A stretch of DNA of 52,574 nt. Source: Bacillota bacterium. GTDB lineage: Bacteria > Bacillota > Clostridia > Clostridiales > Clostridiaceae. The stretch lies in assembly GCA_021781655.1 (NCBI GenBank), contig JAJXWJ010000017.1, positions 1 through 52,574 on the forward strand. The letters run 5' to 3'. The translations under genes were made by a program, and so were the position numbers. Each line of letters starts with the position of its first letter. The stretch's first letter is position 1. The notes below the pieces were generated by a model. It saw only the letters and a program-made list of their open reading frames with translations, searched no databases and was not told the DNA's origin. Shown one piece after another: positions 5,085 to 35,952 of this stretch.

Positions 5085-5093
5085 TGTTATAAT
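5085..5093 (+). promoter_or_regulatory. Extended -10 element, probable original promoter of the 7138 kinase gene
   Basis: TG-T-TATAAT at 5085-5093 is an extended -10 box. It lies 23 bp before the left boundary of the IS607 element; before the insertion it would have been about 25-30 bp upstream of the histidine kinase start codon. The -35 region is poor. Assignment is an inference from the reconstructed empty site. Confidence 0.4.
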
Positions 5094-5143
5094 AGTATTA
5101 AAAATTTTGTTAAAAGGTTGTGAGTGTGAGTGCTAGTTAACAA

Positions 5144-5160
5144 AACATTATATAAGTTTA
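5144..5160 (+). repeat. Left subterminal inverted repeat of the IS607 element
   Basis: AACATTATATAAGTTTA; matches the complement of 7082-7098 except for one base. Probable TnpA-binding site. Confidence 0.65.
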
Positions 5161-5170
5161 TATAATACTC

Positions 5171-5208
5171 TTGTATTTATACAATGTCTATAATATGATA
5201 GATACAAG
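5171..5208. promoter_or_regulatory. Dyads upstream of tnpA, possible TnpA/MerR-type binding site
   Basis: TTGTATttATACAA (5171-5184) is a perfect dyad, and CTTGTAT (5170-5176) is matched by ATACAAG (5202-5208). They lie just before tnpA, whose product has a MerR-like DNA-binding head; autoregulation or recombination-site binding are both possible. Confidence 0.4.
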
Positions 5209-5218
5209 AGGTGATGTT

Positions 5219-5863
5219 ATGGAATATTATTCTATAGGGAAATTTTCAAAACTAATAGGTAAAAATGCTCAAACATTAAGAGAATGGGATAAAAAAGGTG
5301 AGTTGAAACCACATCATATTACTCCTAGTGGGTATAGATATTATTCACAAGAGCAACTCAATCACTTTTTAGGGCTAAAAGGTGTTGTAACTAATACTAA
5401 AAAGGTAATTGGATATTGTAGAGTGTCGAGTAATAAGCAAAAAGACGATTTAGTAAGACAAGTTGAGAATGTCAAAACATATATGATTGCTAAAGGATAT
5501 TCTTTTGATGTTATTACAGACATAGGAAGTGGCATTAACTACAATAAAAAAGGATTAAATCAATTAATAGATATGATAACTAATTCAGAAGTTGAAAAGA
5601 TAGTAATTCTATATAAAGATAGATTATTAAGATTTGGATTTGAAATCATAGAAAATCTATGTAATAAGTATGGAACTACTATTGAAATTATAGATAATAC
5701 TGAAAAGATAGAGGAACAGGAATTAGTTCAGGATTTAATTCAAATTGTTACAATTTTTAGTTGTAGATTACAAGGCAAGAGAGCCAATAAGGCTAAAAAG
5801 ATGATTAAGGAGTTGTTAGAAGATGATAACCTCAATGAAAGTAAGGCTAGAACCAAACAATAA
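5219..5863 (+). CDS. tnpA: IS607 transposase TnpA (serine recombinase with MerR-like HTH)
   Basis: Catalyses excision and insertion of the element through a serine-recombinase mechanism. N-terminal MerR-like winged HTH (residues ~3-50: YSIGKFSKLIG, LREWDKKG, TPSGYRYYS), then the serine-recombinase catalytic domain with GYCRVSS (nucleophile Ser at about 70), LVRQ, DIGSGINYNKKGL and YKDRLLRFG, and a C-terminal YxxRxxGKRAxKAKK-like helix. 214 residues, normal for the family. The ATG at 5219 follows AGAGGTGATG; an in-frame codon at 5171 lies inside the presumed terminal repeat region and is less likely. Overlaps tnpB by 41 bp in another frame, the usual IS607 arrangement. No disabling mutation is visible. 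Confidence 0.93.
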   Translation: MEYYSIGKFSKLIGKNAQTLREWDKKGELKPHHITPSGYRYYSQEQLNHFLGLKGVVTNTKKVIGYCRVSSNKQKDDLVRQVENVKTYMIAKGYSFDVITDIGSGINYNKKGLNQLIDMITNSEVEKIVILYKDRLLRFGFEIIENLCNKYGTTIEIIDNTEKIEEQELVQDLIQIVTIFSCRLQGKRANKAKKMIKELLEDDNLNESKARTKQ

Positions 5864-6950
5864 ACAAGTTTCCAAATTATTTCAATGCGCAGGCACTGCA
5901 AGATTTATTTACAACTGGACTTTAGCAAAGGAAGAAGAAAATTATAAGAATGGTGGTAAATTCATATCTGATAATGAATTAAGAAAGGAAATAACCATCT
6001 TAAAGAAAACAGGAGAATTTAAATGGCTTAATGGAGTATCTAACAATGTAGCGAAACAGGCGGTTAAAGATGGTTGTGAAGCTTATAAAAAGTTTTTTAA
6101 ACATTTAGCGGATAAACCAAAATTCAAGAGTCGAAGGAAGTCAAAACCATCTTTTTACCATGATAATATCAAAATCAAATTTACTGAAACTCATGTTCAG
6201 CTAGAAAAGTTAGGAAAAGTGAAGTTATCAGAGTACGGTAGAATACCTATGAATGTTAAATACAATAATCCAAGAATTAGCTTTGATGGTGTATATTGGT
6301 ACATTTCAATAGGTGTGGAATTTCAGCAAGAACTAGTAGAACTAACTGGCGAAAGTGTAGGAATTGACGTTGGTATTAAAGATTTAGCCATATGCTCCAA
6401 TAGAGAAAAACCATATAAAAACATTAATAAGACTAAAAAAGTTAAGAAGTTAGAAAAGAAATTGCGTAGATTGCAACGCAAGGTATCTAATAAATACCAA
6501 TTAAATAAAAGAGGAGGAAGTTACGTTAAAACGAGCAATATTATAAAAATTGAAAGAAGCATTATAAGGTTACACAAAAATCTTGATAATATTAGAACTG
6601 ATTACAGGCACAAAATAACTACAGAGATAGTGAAAACCAAACCTTCTCGTATAGTTATGGAAACATTGAATGTAAAAGGTATGATGAAAAATAGACATCT
6701 ATCTAAAGGTATAGCAAAACAAGGATTTTTTGAATTTAAAACTATGATTCAGTATAAAGCTGAAAAGTATGGAATTGAATTTGTAGAAGCAGATAAATGG
6801 TATCCATCATCAAAAACTTGTAGTGAATGTGGTCATGTAAAACCTAAACTATCACTATCGGAAAGAACGTTTATATGTGAAGAATGTGGTGTTGTTATAG
6901 ATAGAGATAAAAATGCTAGTATTAATTTATCAAGATATAAAATAGCATAG
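5823..6950 (+). CDS. tnpB: TnpB RNA-guided nuclease (IS607-associated, OrfB with zinc ribbon)
   Basis: Ancestor-type relative of Cas12: an omega-RNA-guided DNA endonuclease that helps retain the transposon by cutting the empty site (established for ISDra2 TnpB). 375 residues. N-terminal HTH/wedge region (KVRLEPN, FIYNW), RuvC I Asp in GIDVGIKDLAI (~182-192), RuvC II Glu in VMETLNVKGM (~278-287), zinc ribbon CSECG ... CEECG (~336-358), and RuvC III Asp in DRDKNASINL. All three acidic positions and four cysteines are present, so it is probably active. The start could also be the in-frame ATG at 5835 (MKVRLEPN), which matches the usual family N-terminus. Confidence 0.92.
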   Translation: MITSMKVRLEPNNKQVSKLFQCAGTARFIYNWTLAKEEENYKNGGKFISDNELRKEITILKKTGEFKWLNGVSNNVAKQAVKDGCEAYKKFFKHLADKPKFKSRRKSKPSFYHDNIKIKFTETHVQLEKLGKVKLSEYGRIPMNVKYNNPRISFDGVYWYISIGVEFQQELVELTGESVGIDVGIKDLAICSNREKPYKNINKTKKVKKLEKKLRRLQRKVSNKYQLNKRGGSYVKTSNIIKIERSIIRLHKNLDNIRTDYRHKITTEIVKTKPSRIVMETLNVKGMMKNRHLSKGIAKQGFFEFKTMIQYKAEKYGIEFVEADKWYPSSKTCSECGHVKPKLSLSERTFICEECGVVIDRDKNASINLSRYKIA

Positions 6951-7133
6951 TCACTTTAACGAATTATGCTATTGTGTAGGGTGAGTTACATCCGAATTTA
7001 AGCCTTTGGAGTGTTACATCAAACGAAAGTAGTTATCCTTTGGGATTGCAAAATCGGACACGTTGAATAAGGAAGTAAATTTAAATTTATATAATGTTAT
7101 TATAGAGTTTTGTAAAGTTTACGTAACGGAAGG
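6900..7133 (+). ncRNA. Putative omega RNA (TnpB guide RNA scaffold)
   Basis: In IS605/IS607 elements the guide RNA overlaps the 3' end of tnpB and runs to the right end of the element, with the guide taken from the flanking DNA. Here ~180 non-coding bases follow the tnpB stop and contain short self-complementary blocks (for example ATCCTTTGGGAT near 7037-7048). If the right boundary is 7133, the guide would begin TTAGATGATAAATC, the start of the adjacent kinase gene. Extent is inferred from family knowledge; no alignment was possible. Confidence 0.5.
7082..7098 (-). repeat. Right subterminal inverted repeat of the IS607 element
   Basis: Reads TAAATTTATATAATGTT on the plus strand, complement of 5144-5160 with one difference; a TTTTGTAAAG block follows it, matching the inverted TTTTGTTAAC outside the left copy. 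Confidence 0.65.
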
Positions 7134-7137
7134 TTAG

Positions 7138-8481
7138 ATGATAAATCAAAATAGTATTACGCTCCTTGTAGGTATAATACTTCTACTGGTAATTGTTATT
7201 GTTTTTTTGATGTTTTACATAAAAAAACTTAAAATGCAAAGGGATGAGTTACAGCAAAGTGAGCAAATTTTAAAAACAATTATCAATGGTTTACCAGATT
7301 TAATTGGTTATAAAGATAGTGAAGGAAAATGGATAGTTGCCAATGAAGCCTTCTTTAAAATATTTAATACCGATGAAACTATGTTAGGTAAGACTAATTT
7401 AGAATTGATGTTTTTTTTACCTGAATTTAAAAAGGAATTAGAAGGCTGTGAAGAAACTGATAAAAAAACTTGGGAAAATAAAAATACTTCCATGTTTGAA
7501 GAAAGCTTTCACCAGCTAGATGGTACATTTAGAACTTTTGACGTAGTAAAGGTTCCTATTTTTTATGATTATGGAAACAGAAAAGGCGTTGCTGTTTTAG
7601 GGAGAGAAATAACGGAGCGTAAAAAAACGGAGGAACTAAAAAAACAAACGGAGGATAAAGAAAGACAACTGTTAGAATTAAAGCATTATAATGAAATTAG
7701 GACAGAATTTTTTGCAAATTTGTCTCATGAGCTTAGAACTCCATTAAATTTAATTATGTCATCAGTTCAGCTTATTCAGAAGTTAAATGAAAATGAAATT
7801 AATTGTTTAAATAAATTTAACAAGTATATTAACATAATAAGACAAAATAGCTATAGATTGGTTAAAATTGTGAACAATTTAATCGATATAACTAAAATAG
7901 AGGCAGGATATTTAGAACCAAATTTTTATAATGTAAACATAGTTGAAATTGTTGAAAATATAACGCTGTCTATAAATAGTTATGCAGAACAAAAAGAGAT
8001 ATCCTTAATATTTGATACTAATGTTGAAGAGAAGGTTATGAGCTGTGATCCATATATTATTGAAAGAATAATGTTGAATCTTCTTTCTAATGCTGTTAAA
8101 TTTACTCAAAATGGTGGAACTATCGAAGTCTTTTTAGAAGATAATAATGATTTTATTGAAATTATCGTGAAAGATAATGGGATTGGAATACCTATAGAAA
8201 AGCAGTCTTTAATATTTGAACGATTTGTTCAAGTTGATAAATCCCTTTCTAGAAATAGAGAAGGTAGTGGTATAGGATTATCTTTAGTTAAGGCTTTTGT
8301 AGAAATACACGGTGGAAAAATTGAAATAGATAATAATTATACTGAAGGAAGTAAATTTATTGTTTGTATTCCTGTAAGAGTGCTAGCTGAAGTTGAAAAC
8401 GAAAATAATAATTACATATGTCAAAATAAAGATAACAGAGTTCAAATTATTAATGTGGAGTTTTCTGATATTTATTCATAA
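7138..8481 (+). CDS. PAS-domain sensor histidine kinase
   Basis: 447 residues. One N-terminal membrane helix (~7-28), a PAS domain (~41-160, including GLPDLIGYKD and the end AVLGREITERKK), HisKA with phospho-acceptor His197 in LSHELRTPLN, and an HATPase_c domain with NLLSNAVKF (N box), DNGIGIP (G1), IFERFVQ (F box) and GSGIGLSLVKAF (G2). The PAS domain is cytoplasmic, so it likely senses an internal ligand or redox state. No response regulator is adjacent; the next gene encodes a YcgR/PilZ-like protein 17 bp on. The C-terminal tail ends VEFSDIYS, a motif also ending the kinase at 13720. The start ATG is 5 bp from an IS607 boundary; AAGG serves as ribosome site both with and without the insertion. 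Confidence 0.92.
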   Translation: MINQNSITLLVGIILLLVIVIVFLMFYIKKLKMQRDELQQSEQILKTIINGLPDLIGYKDSEGKWIVANEAFFKIFNTDETMLGKTNLELMFFLPEFKKELEGCEETDKKTWENKNTSMFEESFHQLDGTFRTFDVVKVPIFYDYGNRKGVAVLGREITERKKTEELKKQTEDKERQLLELKHYNEIRTEFFANLSHELRTPLNLIMSSVQLIQKLNENEINCLNKFNKYINIIRQNSYRLVKIVNNLIDITKIEAGYLEPNFYNVNIVEIVENITLSINSYAEQKEISLIFDTNVEEKVMSCDPYIIERIMLNLLSNAVKFTQNGGTIEVFLEDNNDFIEIIVKDNGIGIPIEKQSLIFERFVQVDKSLSRNREGSGIGLSLVKAFVEIHGGKIEIDNNYTEGSKFIVCIPVRVLAEVENENNNYICQNKDNRVQIINVEFSDIYS

Positions 8482-13719: not shown

Positions 13720-15117
13720 ATGATAGATATAGAATCATTAAAGGTTACTGATTTTATTGATTTGAAATTGTTACAGCAATTTCAAGATTCGTTTTCTAAA
13801 AGTATGGATATAGCTACTGTTGTAGTAGATAAGGATGGAAAACCAGTAACAAACCCAAGTTCATTTACTGATATTTGTAAAACAATAATTCCAACCTGTA
13901 GCAATGGAAATTTAAAATGCCAAGAAGCTCATAGGAGAGGTGGAGAGATGGCAGTTAAAATCGGTAAGCCATATATATATAAATGTCACGCTGGCTTGAT
14001 TGATTTTGCTGCACCAATATTAGTTGATGGTAGTCATATTGGAACTGTTCTAGGTGGTCAGGTTTTGACAAAGGTACCTAAAACAGAAAGTTATAATAAA
14101 GTGATTTCAGAACTAAATTTGGATGAAGAACAATTTGAAAATAGTCTTAAAGACATAAAAATAGTTGATAAAGAGAAGTTATTAGCAGCTGCTGAAGCTT
14201 TGTTTATTATGGCAAATGCTTTATCAAAAATTGGCTATGAAACTTTAAGATTGAGACTAAATTCTGAAAAGCTTAAAGATGAAGTCGTAAACAAAAATAT
14301 TTTATTAGAAAAATCACAAAATAAAAATATATCATTAGCTCGTACTTTTTCTATTATGTCACACGAATTAAAAACTCCAATTAATATAATATTTAGTGCA
14401 TTGCAGCTTTTAGAAGCTCAATATGAGTCTAATTCATATATTTCTGATTCAAAACTATTTTGTAAATATTCTAAAATAATGAAACAAAATTGCTATAGAT
14501 TAGTTAGATTAATTAATAATCTAATAGATATGAACAAAATTGAAAATGGATTTTATAAATTAAAATTAGTAAATAGTGATATTATAAAAACTATTGAAGA
14601 TATTACTTTATCGGTTGTACAATTTGCTAATTTTAAAAATATAGATATCGTTTTTGATACGGATGTAGAAGAAAAAATAACTGCATATGATCCTGAAAAG
14701 CTTGAAAGAATTATGCTTAATATTTTATCTAATGCTATAAAATATACTGGTTCAAATGGATTGATAGAAGTAAATATTTATGATAAAGTTGATTTGTTAT
14801 TGATTTCAATTAAAGATTCAGGAATAGGAATTCCAGAACATATGCATAAAAAAATATTTGAAAACTATATTCAAGTTGAAGATAGTATTGAAAAAAAGCC
14901 AGAAGGAAGCGGCATTGGATTATCATTGGTAAAATCTCTTGTAGAAATGCATAAGGGAAAAATTAGCGTGAAAAGTGAAGTTGGTGTAGGAAGCGAATTT
15001 ATAATAGAACTTCCAATAACTTGTGTAGAAAATAGTGAAAATAATGGAAATGAAAGCATTCACACAAGAGATTATGTGGAAAAAATACAAATTGAGTTTT
15101 CTGATATATACCAATAA
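13720..15117 (+). CDS. Sensor histidine kinase with PocR ligand-binding domain
   Basis: 465 residues, no membrane segment, so a cytoplasmic sensor. PocR domain at ~10-170 (FSKSMDIATVVVDKDGKPVTNPSSF, then KPYIYKCHAGLIDFAAPI and GTVLGGQVL) with four conserved cysteines, Cys53, 60, 67 and 89. HisKA phospho-acceptor His215 in MSHELKTPIN, then HATPase_c with NILSNAIKYT, DSGIGIP, IFENYIQVE and GSGIGLSLVKSL. Kinase half closely resembles the 7138 kinase, including the tail ending IEFSDIYQ. PocR domains bind small molecules such as hydrocarbon derivatives in known regulators; the ligand here is unknown. GGAGGAG precedes the start. Likely partner: the receiver at 13217. Confidence 0.92.
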   Translation: MIDIESLKVTDFIDLKLLQQFQDSFSKSMDIATVVVDKDGKPVTNPSSFTDICKTIIPTCSNGNLKCQEAHRRGGEMAVKIGKPYIYKCHAGLIDFAAPILVDGSHIGTVLGGQVLTKVPKTESYNKVISELNLDEEQFENSLKDIKIVDKEKLLAAAEALFIMANALSKIGYETLRLRLNSEKLKDEVVNKNILLEKSQNKNISLARTFSIMSHELKTPINIIFSALQLLEAQYESNSYISDSKLFCKYSKIMKQNCYRLVRLINNLIDMNKIENGFYKLKLVNSDIIKTIEDITLSVVQFANFKNIDIVFDTDVEEKITAYDPEKLERIMLNILSNAIKYTGSNGLIEVNIYDKVDLLLISIKDSGIGIPEHMHKKIFENYIQVEDSIEKKPEGSGIGLSLVKSLVEMHKGKISVKSEVGVGSEFIIELPITCVENSENNGNESIHTRDYVEKIQIEFSDIYQ

Positions 15118-33967: not shown

Positions 33968-35458
33968 CTAAATATTTCTTACCGCTAATAATATGAAGTT
34001 CAAAATAAATAATGCTGTGAAGAAATATATAACTGGATGTATTTTCTTTGCTTCTTTTTTCAATATGCTTATTAAAACAAAGCTTATAAATCCAAAAGAT
34101 ATACCAGTTGTAATACTGTAAGCAAAAGGCATAAATGCTATTGTTAAGAAAGCAACAGCTGCTGAGCTGAAATCTTTCCAATCAATTTCACCGACAGAAG
34201 ACATCATTAGTATACCAACAACAACTAGAGCAGGTGCTGTTGCAACTGAAGGTATGATTCCAACAACTGGTGATAAAATAAGGCAAACTAGAAACATTAT
34301 TGCAGTTACAACTGAAGTTAAGCCTGTTCTTCCACCAGCAGCTATACCTGCTGAACTTTCAACATAAGTTGTTGTGTTAGAAGTTCCAAATAGAGCACCT
34401 ACTATAGTTGCACTTAAATCAGCAAATAATGCTTTGTCTAAACGTGATTTAACGCCTTTACCTTCAAACATAAGCTTTTCATCTTCTGCATCAAATATAC
34501 CAGAACGTCTACCAGTTCCAATGAAGGTACCAAGTGCGTCAAAAATATCTGTAAGAATAAAAGCTATCATTGCAGTTAAAGCAAGTAAAAATTTTCCACC
34601 AGATGCAAAAAGCCCAGCAAAATCCATTTTAAAAGCAGTGAGTTTTACTGCTGAAATAGAAGTTCCTATACCGCTCAAGGAAATATTAGCAGAGGAGAAA
34701 AATTCATGTGCATTCTTTGCTTGGAATCCAAAAACAGCTGGATTTACGCCACATGCTATTTCAATAAAGCAAATTGCAGTTACAGTAACTATTCCGATTA
34801 AGATAGCTGCTCTAAATTTTAAAATCATAAGAATAAGTATTAAAATAATTCCTAAAAGAGCTAACTGTACAGCTGGGTTAGAGAAATTAACAAGTGCAGG
34901 AACAGCAGATGCATCTGCTACAACTGTTGCATCAGCAGGAGTTTTTCCAAAGAACTGATAAGTGCCTGGGTCAGATGTGAATTTTAAAAGTCCACAGTCC
35001 TTTATACCTATATATGCAACAAATAGACCAATACCACCACCAATAGCTTTTTGAAGGATTGGAGGCAAGGCACGGATAATGACTTTACGAAGGCCTGTTA
35101 CTGTGATAATTATATTTACTACACCACATATAAATACCATAGCTAAAGCTTGTTGCCAACTAAAGCCCATTACGTTACAAACAGTAAAGGTAAAAAATGC
35201 ATTTAATCCCATTCCAGGAGCTAGTGCATAGGGAACATTTGCAAAAAGACCCATAACTAGAGTTCCAACAACAGAAGAAATTATTGTTGCCACAAAGATA
35301 GCTTGTGGGTCAAAAGGATTGTTTGCAGTTCCAGCTAATTTTAAAATACTTGGATTTACAAAGATGATGTATGCCATCGTAAAAAAGGTTGTAAGACCAG
35401 CGATGACTTCAGTTCGAACGTTAGTTCCATAGTGTTTTAATTTGAAAAAATTTTCCAT
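33968..35458 (-). CDS. NCS2-family guanine/hypoxanthine permease (AzgA/PbuG type)
   Basis: 496 residues with about 12-14 membrane segments. The N-terminus (RTEVIAGLTTFFTMAYIIFVNPSIL, split) is the AzgA-like hallmark; other family blocks are APGMGLNAFFTFTVC, GGIGLFVAYIG, FDALGTFIGTGRRSG and SNTTTYVESSAGIAAGGRTGL. Imports guanine or hypoxanthine with protons. The leader contains a guanine-class riboswitch, which independently supports a purine-base substrate. AGGGGTT precedes the ATG. Confidence 0.94.
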   Translation of the reverse strand: MENFFKLKHYGTNVRTEVIAGLTTFFTMAYIIFVNPSILKLAGTANNPFDPQAIFVATIISSVVGTLVMGLFANVPYALAPGMGLNAFFTFTVCNVMGFSWQQALAMVFICGVVNIIITVTGLRKVIIRALPPILQKAIGGGIGLFVAYIGIKDCGLLKFTSDPGTYQFFGKTPADATVVADASAVPALVNFSNPAVQLALLGIILILILMILKFRAAILIGIVTVTAICFIEIACGVNPAVFGFQAKNAHEFFSSANISLSGIGTSISAVKLTAFKMDFAGLFASGGKFLLALTAMIAFILTDIFDALGTFIGTGRRSGIFDAEDEKLMFEGKGVKSRLDKALFADLSATIVGALFGTSNTTTYVESSAGIAAGGRTGLTSVVTAIMFLVCLILSPVVGIIPSVATAPALVVVGILMMSSVGEIDWKDFSSAAVAFLTIAFMPFAYSITTGISFGFISFVLISILKKEAKKIHPVIYFFTALFILNFILLAVRNI

Positions 35459-35537: not shown

Positions 35538-35617
35538 ATCGGGAAAAAAAATAAATCCTTAATTATGATTACGAATTATGAAAAATAAATTATAAATTAA
35601 TCAAATATGAACTAATT

Positions 35618-35688
35618 TTCCGATAGTCAGGTAATTAACGGTCACCCGGTAGAAACTGCCAACCCATACTTGTTGGCGATATATCGAA
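35618..35688 (-). promoter_or_regulatory. Purine riboswitch aptamer, guanine class
   Basis: On the minus strand: P1 strand TTCGATA, junction, P2 GCCAAC / GTTGGC, the conserved AGTTTCTACC joining segment, P3 around GGGTGACCGTTAATTACC, and GACTAT before the closing TATCGGA. The base corresponding to xpt position 74 is C (GACT), which selects guanine/hypoxanthine over adenine. It lies ~160 nt before the permease start. Binding would stabilise P1, free the terminator and switch the permease gene off. Confidence 0.96.
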
Positions 35689-35952
35689 TCTAATTTTTTT
35701 ATGCGAAAACTTCTCCACTTGATTATATTGTACTTCGTCGAATTTTGCAAGTAGTAATTATGTAACCTTTTTTAAAAATTTTTATTGATTAGCATTGGGA
35801 AAATAAGCAGATGAATATATTTGTAATAATGAAATATAATTATGTATGTTTATATTCTGTTATATTTCTGTGTATATTATTGCTTTTTAATTTTTCACTG
35901 TATAAAATTAAATTAAATAAGTAAATAAAATATGTCTTTAGGGGGTTTTATT

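Follow-up and report, generated by a model that had tools for sequence, protein, structure and literature searches.

The 52,574-nt stretch analysed here (hereafter the window; contig JAJXWJ010000017.1 of assembly GCA_021781655.1, a Clostridiaceae genome) carries an element upstream of a histidine kinase gene that, judged by its sequence, is an IS607 member of the RAGATH-18 TnpB group. Comparison of sequences indicates that RAGATH-18 elements recurrently sit right after AGGAGG-like Shine-Dalgarno sites, with a gene start following the right end. As sequences, the published target-adjacent motif (TAM) of RAGATH-18 TnpBs (AGGAG or GAGGG; PMC11061315) and the Shine-Dalgarno motif are one and the same. 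We consider it probable that the window's element inserted in the ribosome-binding region of the kinase gene, and that the group does so recurrently at Shine-Dalgarno sequences with its guide directed into the next gene. The element itself is one more IS607/TnpB system, and what the comparison joins is the RAGATH-18 TnpB target motif and the Shine-Dalgarno sequence. This link was not found in the titles or abstracts searched, although subscription papers were mostly outside that search and the link may already be in print.

TnpA matched the Pfam families MerR_1 and Resolvase, and the structures it matched included those of ISC1926 and IS1535. TnpB aligned over its full length with the ISFba1 TnpB (8iaz, 1.5e-79) with the RuvC D/E/D triad intact, and a RAGATH-18 RNA lies directly 3' of tnpB. 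The reading frames of tnpA, tnpB and the kinase are all open. The element is single-copy, there being no second full copy in the genome and only four short partial matches elsewhere. An earlier sequence-only reading of this DNA had placed an IS607 element between a promoter-like site and the kinase start codon, which both sequence and homology support; it had also described the catalytic residues as intact, which holds for D182, E280 and D360 of TnpB, with cleavage itself a prediction. An IStron identity was ruled out, as an RNA family scan found no group I intron at gathering thresholds anywhere in the window; the insertion would thus not be removed from RNA.

Relatives were sought by TnpB, with matches in 57 of 206 genomes at family level and 5 of 398 at phylum level (own genome counted in both). 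Viral contigs contributed 77 TnpB loci, the first 30 of which were scanned, and with further stretches included a total of 119 loci were scanned for the right-end motif. In the alignment of the relatives' downstream regions the scaffold was conserved to G(T/C)AACGG, with unrelated sequence beyond, including in the nearest relatives (L038 and L039; loci and genomes are given as L and G numbers). This provided a simple rule, by which the right end of each locus was taken as the first G(T/C)AACGG match more than 120 nt after tnpB. The motif was found at 91 of 119 loci, and after two double-fetched loci and one duplicate were dropped, 88 distinct elements remained, the window's included. The window's copy of the motif ends at GG 7128-7129, so that AAGG at 7130-7133 belongs to the flank, and the alignment thus places the element's right end at this GG.

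The right-end rule was exact to the base at the empty sites of two relatives, both of which show precise insertion at GG with no target duplication. L159 of G549 sits between motA-like and motB-like genes (named by reading the translations). Its reconstructed junction of 220 nt, in which the left flank, ending in GG, is followed directly by the sequence that begins just past AACGG, was matched in G550 at 96% and in G012, G548 and G551 at 79-80%, gapless over 218-220 nt, such that the empty site was present in 4/4 other genomes of the genus. For L063, G616 matched positions 54-220 at 82%, with an exact junction of TTAGGAGG followed by AAATA and gaps farther left; among the six other genomes of that genus, G621 gave a partial match lacking GGAGG and the remaining four gave none. 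No empty site was found for the window locus, whose genus contains one species, in the genomes searched. A kinase search of genome contigs returned two distant kinases (26% and 24%). The kinase N-terminus was matched in 24 of 206 family genomes, its own included, with the best other match at 49% (G463), and none of five other window proteins tested by tblastn lay near that match. The upstream aminotransferase was present in 3 of 57 other genomes, with no kinase match in the stretches examined there.

The association with gene starts was assessed by asking for an ATG, GTG or TTG of an open reading frame (ORF) of at least 60 codons 3-12 nt past the element end. Such a start was present in 50 of the 88 elements, including the window's (49 when only the first start was counted, of which 28 lay at 7-8 nt), compared with 9-13% of control GGs (243 of 2733 from the window, 401 of 3157 from right flanks). 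The proportion was 16/27 at TnpB identities of at least 65% and 27/45 at 55-65%. L057, which was missed by this test, lies ahead of a selD-like gene (by reading) that probably encodes selenocysteine at an in-frame TGA; the tnpA of L057 is broken into two ORFs (94 and 90 aa). The left flanks of 49 elements gave the consensus AGGAGG, and 47 of these ended in GG. Nine copies in G549, placed by alignment alone, end in GGAGG (5), GGGGG (2) or AGAGG (2), and 7 of the 9 have a start in range. Among the 46 elements for which both ends were placed and the core was GG (L057 and L068, without GG, and L193, without a right end, were left out), a start was observed in 28 against 10.5 predicted from their own last five bases, and none of 200,000 simulations reached 28.

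In 27 elements both ends were placed and the first start lay 3-12 nt past the right end; in every one of these, the occupied site paired less strongly with the 16S tail than the reconstructed site did (medians of -3.3 and -10.7 kcal/mol, respectively). For the kinase, the values were -6.9 kcal/mol occupied and -9.6 or -9.0 in two corrected reconstructions, the occupied value being retained because AAGG lies in the gene's own right flank. Translation of the kinase would presumably be weaker with the element present. The sequence-only reading had the element rebuild the ribosome site, which an end at AACGG does not do.

Left regions were aligned by anchoring on the tnpA start, and most left junctions of relatives were placed by hand, which makes the left-end spacing and flank counts partly circular. 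Of 49 relatives, 42 had the junction GG 7-9 nt ahead of a C(A/T/G)G(T/C) motif and 4 had it 4-5 nt ahead; three were unmatched and none was farther than 9 nt. By eye, the window's counterpart of this motif is TAGTTA at 5134, and the relatives' spacing would then put the junction at about 5124-5125, where the sequence is GT. The bases that follow, GTGAGTGC, resemble the left ends of relatives (GAGAGTGA in L056 and GTAAGTAA in L162), and the left flank of L162, GTGAGG, compares with GTGAGT in the window (AAAAGG under the alternative junction). The left junction is most likely 5124-5125, with one core G apparently changed to T; the GG at 5116-5117 is less likely and would require a left end that exceeds the longest one measured by 8 nt. 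L057 also has no GG at its left junction. A search for the anchor that was independent of GG gave 34 places, five of which were set aside by eye as not being left ends (L055, L074, L155, L165 and L194); (A/G)GG preceded the anchor in 28 of the other 29, with L057 the exception. Upstream of tnpA in L065, L184 and L187, a common stretch, GCGTGAGCGAAAT...GTAGCG, replaces the usual left end; it may represent a different type of left end or what is left of an intron.

Forty-three TnpBs of this kind were tested by Ren et al. 2024 (PMC11061315), of which 23, from 22 strains, cut; the TAM was AGGAG in 18 of the 22 strains and GAGGG in 4. The corresponding AG-rich motif at the left flank is GTGAGT or AAAAGG in the window, and AGGAGG in the consensus of relatives. 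The scaffold in that study extends 64 nt beyond RAGATH-18; the corresponding distance in the window, from 7074 to 7130, is 55 nt. The ISXfa1 scaffold includes the flanking core nucleotide (PMC10711439); on this basis the guide is expected from 7130, with a one-base offset possible. As the sequence-only reading proposed, a guide derived from the right flank would cover the kinase start. The predicted guide is unique in the genome, with four other places at 3 mismatches versus three for a reversed control. At the third catalytic position D is replaced by N in 3 of 119 TnpB loci (L057, L064 and L157), and L061 is gapped there. These three TnpBs are predicted to be nuclease-dead; their frames are otherwise open and the right end is in place. 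The guide of L064 had three further genomic places, each with 3 mismatches (control 0), and that of L157 one with 3 mismatches (control 2). With nothing better than 3 mismatches, the L064 and L157 guides gave no convincing sign of a domesticated TldR-like regulator.

In the proposed mechanism, the GG target of TnpA and the TAM of TnpB would together amount to a Shine-Dalgarno sequence, and the guide RNA would begin at the right end and extend over the first codons of the gene that follows. Excision, if precise, would rejoin the Shine-Dalgarno sequence and start codon, that is, the TAM plus its target, and TnpB would cut the excised allele so that the element could be copied back. The occupied allele has AACGG before the target, with no purine-rich TAM, and should be spared. 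For relatives, published work describes cutting of empty chromosomes, and copy-back or drive by TnpB is a model for a sister family in a preprint (PMC11870625). If the mechanism is correct, it explains where these elements are found, predicts weakened translation of the gene behind, makes guides predictable in any genome (the first ~20 nt after AACGG), and offers a rationale for why a nuclease would benefit an element with harmful insertion sites and the capacity for precise excision. A further step, which we regard as rather unlikely, would see RAGATH-18 IS607 elements as RNA-guided parasites of translation starts that impose an enforced reversible switch, insertion turning the gene off and excision turning it on, with TnpB destroying the "on" allele and recopying the element. 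Each new guide would then be the start-codon region of the gene behind, a ready aim that would favour co-option of TnpB as an RNA-guided regulator.

The systems of PMC11061315, including ISFba1, resemble the window in having RAGATH-18 just downstream of tnpB, a scaffold reaching to the right end, the catalytic triad and an IS607 TnpA upstream, and a left-end AG-rich TAM is reported for them; the terms Shine, ribosome and start codon are absent from that paper. They differ from the window copy in that its left core is probably changed and its TAM and activity are predictions. IS607, ISC1926 and IS1535 (eLife 2018, PMC6188088) likewise combine a serine transposase, a GG core (given there as the family crossover core, as the sequence-only reading had it) and no target duplication, here observed at two relatives, but their target preference is only (G)GG whereas the flanks of the relatives here read AGGAGG. 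The ISXfa1 TnpB (NAR 2023, PMC10711439) is an IS607 TnpB whose guide starts after GG, as assumed here; its TAM is GGG, unlike AGGAG or GAGGG. Group B IStrons (NAR 2014, PMC4227781) likewise have IS607-type ORFs, GG-containing targets and Clostridium among their hosts, but unlike them the window has no group I intron at gathering thresholds.

Several observations weigh against the favoured explanation. Under the favoured limit the window's left core departs from GG, and the right-end motif is missing in 28 of 119 loci, mostly with TnpBs of at most 50% identity (exceptions L059, L070 and L150). In annotated records from outside the sample, AACGG after tnpB was absent in 4 of 6 (L236, L238, L240 and L241) and present in L234 and L235; L235 has no annotated start near its end (the nearest at least 109 nt away), and in L234 the annotated start lies at 22 nt, with an in-frame ATG at 7 nt past the end. 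Two unannotated records have an ATG 8 nt (L239) and 11 nt (L237) past the end. Furthermore, 38 of the 88 elements have no start in range, and the fraction with one falls to 6/16 below 55% TnpB identity and 4/13 in viral loci. Lastly, of the 156 AGGAGG sites counted over 400 kb of the G549 genome, 75 already have an ORF start 3-12 nt downstream, which means that the motif by itself explains part of the association. The latter count favours a passive association, in which TnpA picks GG-rich sites, insertions inside genes are lost by selection and TnpB is irrelevant to site choice, its premise being that AGGAGG in AT-rich genomes is mostly a ribosome-binding site; we give this not far short of an even chance. 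It is also in line with the preference of IS607 in E. coli for only (G)GG (PMC6188088), yet that same preference makes retention by TnpB attractive as an explanation. Two findings argue against the passive reading: the flank consensus extends beyond GG and is identical to the TAM in PMC11061315, and 28 starts exceed the predicted 10.5, though loss of insertions inside genes may account for that excess. Transposase preference and retention by TnpB are not separable from these counts.

The window copy could alternatively be a trapped relic with unmatched cores, hardly excisable and with a TnpB heading to decay, a reading that we find plausible but on balance doubtful. Serine recombinases need matching cores, and excision should suffer where these differ; GG is seen at the right end, and at the left the core is GT if the favoured junction holds and GG only at 5116-5117. 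The single copy fits a relic as well, but tnpA, tnpB, the RNA and the end repeats are intact and the left core is uncertain. An intact GG core on both sides is obtained by combining the left GG at 5116-5117 with the right GG at 7128-7129, for an empty site of AAAAGG joined to AAGGTTAGATG that is purine-rich like other flanks and has good Shine-Dalgarno pairing (-9.0). This combination is unlikely, as the 16 nt from junction to TAGTTA compares poorly with the spacing in relatives. The sequence-only reading had instead claimed a reconstruction to the base, with the element at 5118-7133 and an empty site of AAAAGGTTAGATG. The features it pointed to are all in the sequence (AAGGTT at 5114-5119 and 7130-7135, TGTTATAAT at 5085-5093 and the kinase ATG at 7138), and AAGGTT does flank both sides with GG in its middle. 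Two random GGs share a 6-mer in register with a chance of 3.6%, but two 30-nt segments drawn at random from the 52 kb have a 6-mer in common 27% of the time, so the pair is weak evidence. Its right boundary (7132-7133) does not hold, since the relatives' scaffold and the real empty sites both obey the AACGG rule and put the end 4 nt earlier; its left boundary (5116-5117) is doubtful for the spacing and length given above, and its empty site has weak Shine-Dalgarno pairing (-3.8 kcal/mol). We consider these limits highly improbable, and insertion in the ribosome-binding region with the favoured limits is used in Table 1.

Table 1. Features of the IS607 element and its surroundings in the window.
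Position	Strand	Feature	Basis
5085-5093	+	Extended -10 promoter-like site TGTTATAAT, left of element	Sequence
5116-5126	+	Left-junction zone: favoured 5124-5125 (GT; relatives GG), alternative GG 5116-5117	Left ends of 49 relatives
5126-7129	+	IS607 element, favoured limits	Ends from relatives; right end also from relatives' empty sites
5137-5166	+	Promoter-like TTAACA-18-TATAAT ahead of tnpA	Promoter scan, 11/12 matches
5144-5163	+	Left-end arm of 20-nt subterminal inverted repeat (90%)	Repeat comparison of left and right ends; chance not assessed
5219-5863	+	tnpA, serine recombinase with N-terminal MerR-type helix-turn-helix, ATG at 5219	ORF, domains
5823-6950	+	tnpB, RNA-guided nuclease by homology, D182/E280/D360 present	ORF, alignment
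7003-7074	+	RAGATH-18 RNA (RF03064), core of guide-RNA scaffold	72.6 bits (gathering score 44.9)
7079-7098	+	Right-end arm of same 20-nt inverted repeat (90%)	Repeat comparison of left and right ends
7128-7129	+	Right-end GG, crossover core, scaffold end	Relatives' alignment, end motif, empty sites
7130-7149	+	Predicted 20-nt guide, with the kinase ATG at its positions 9-11	Right end; guide length from PMC11061315
7138-8481	+	Histidine kinase gene behind element (PAS, HisKA, HATPase), ATG at 7138	ORF, domains

The promoter scan omits the extended -10 site because it has no good -35, and promoter-like matches in the left-end region were overall no more frequent than in shuffles. Elsewhere in the window, a second histidine-kinase-like ORF (13720-15117, + strand) has a C-terminal QIEFSDIYQ that resembles the kinase behind the element. 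A purine riboswitch (35604-35706, - strand; 72.2 bits) lies upstream of a permease-like ORF on the same strand (33968-35458), and a small lipoprotein-like ORF (1242-1814, - strand) contains a long serine/asparagine repeat.

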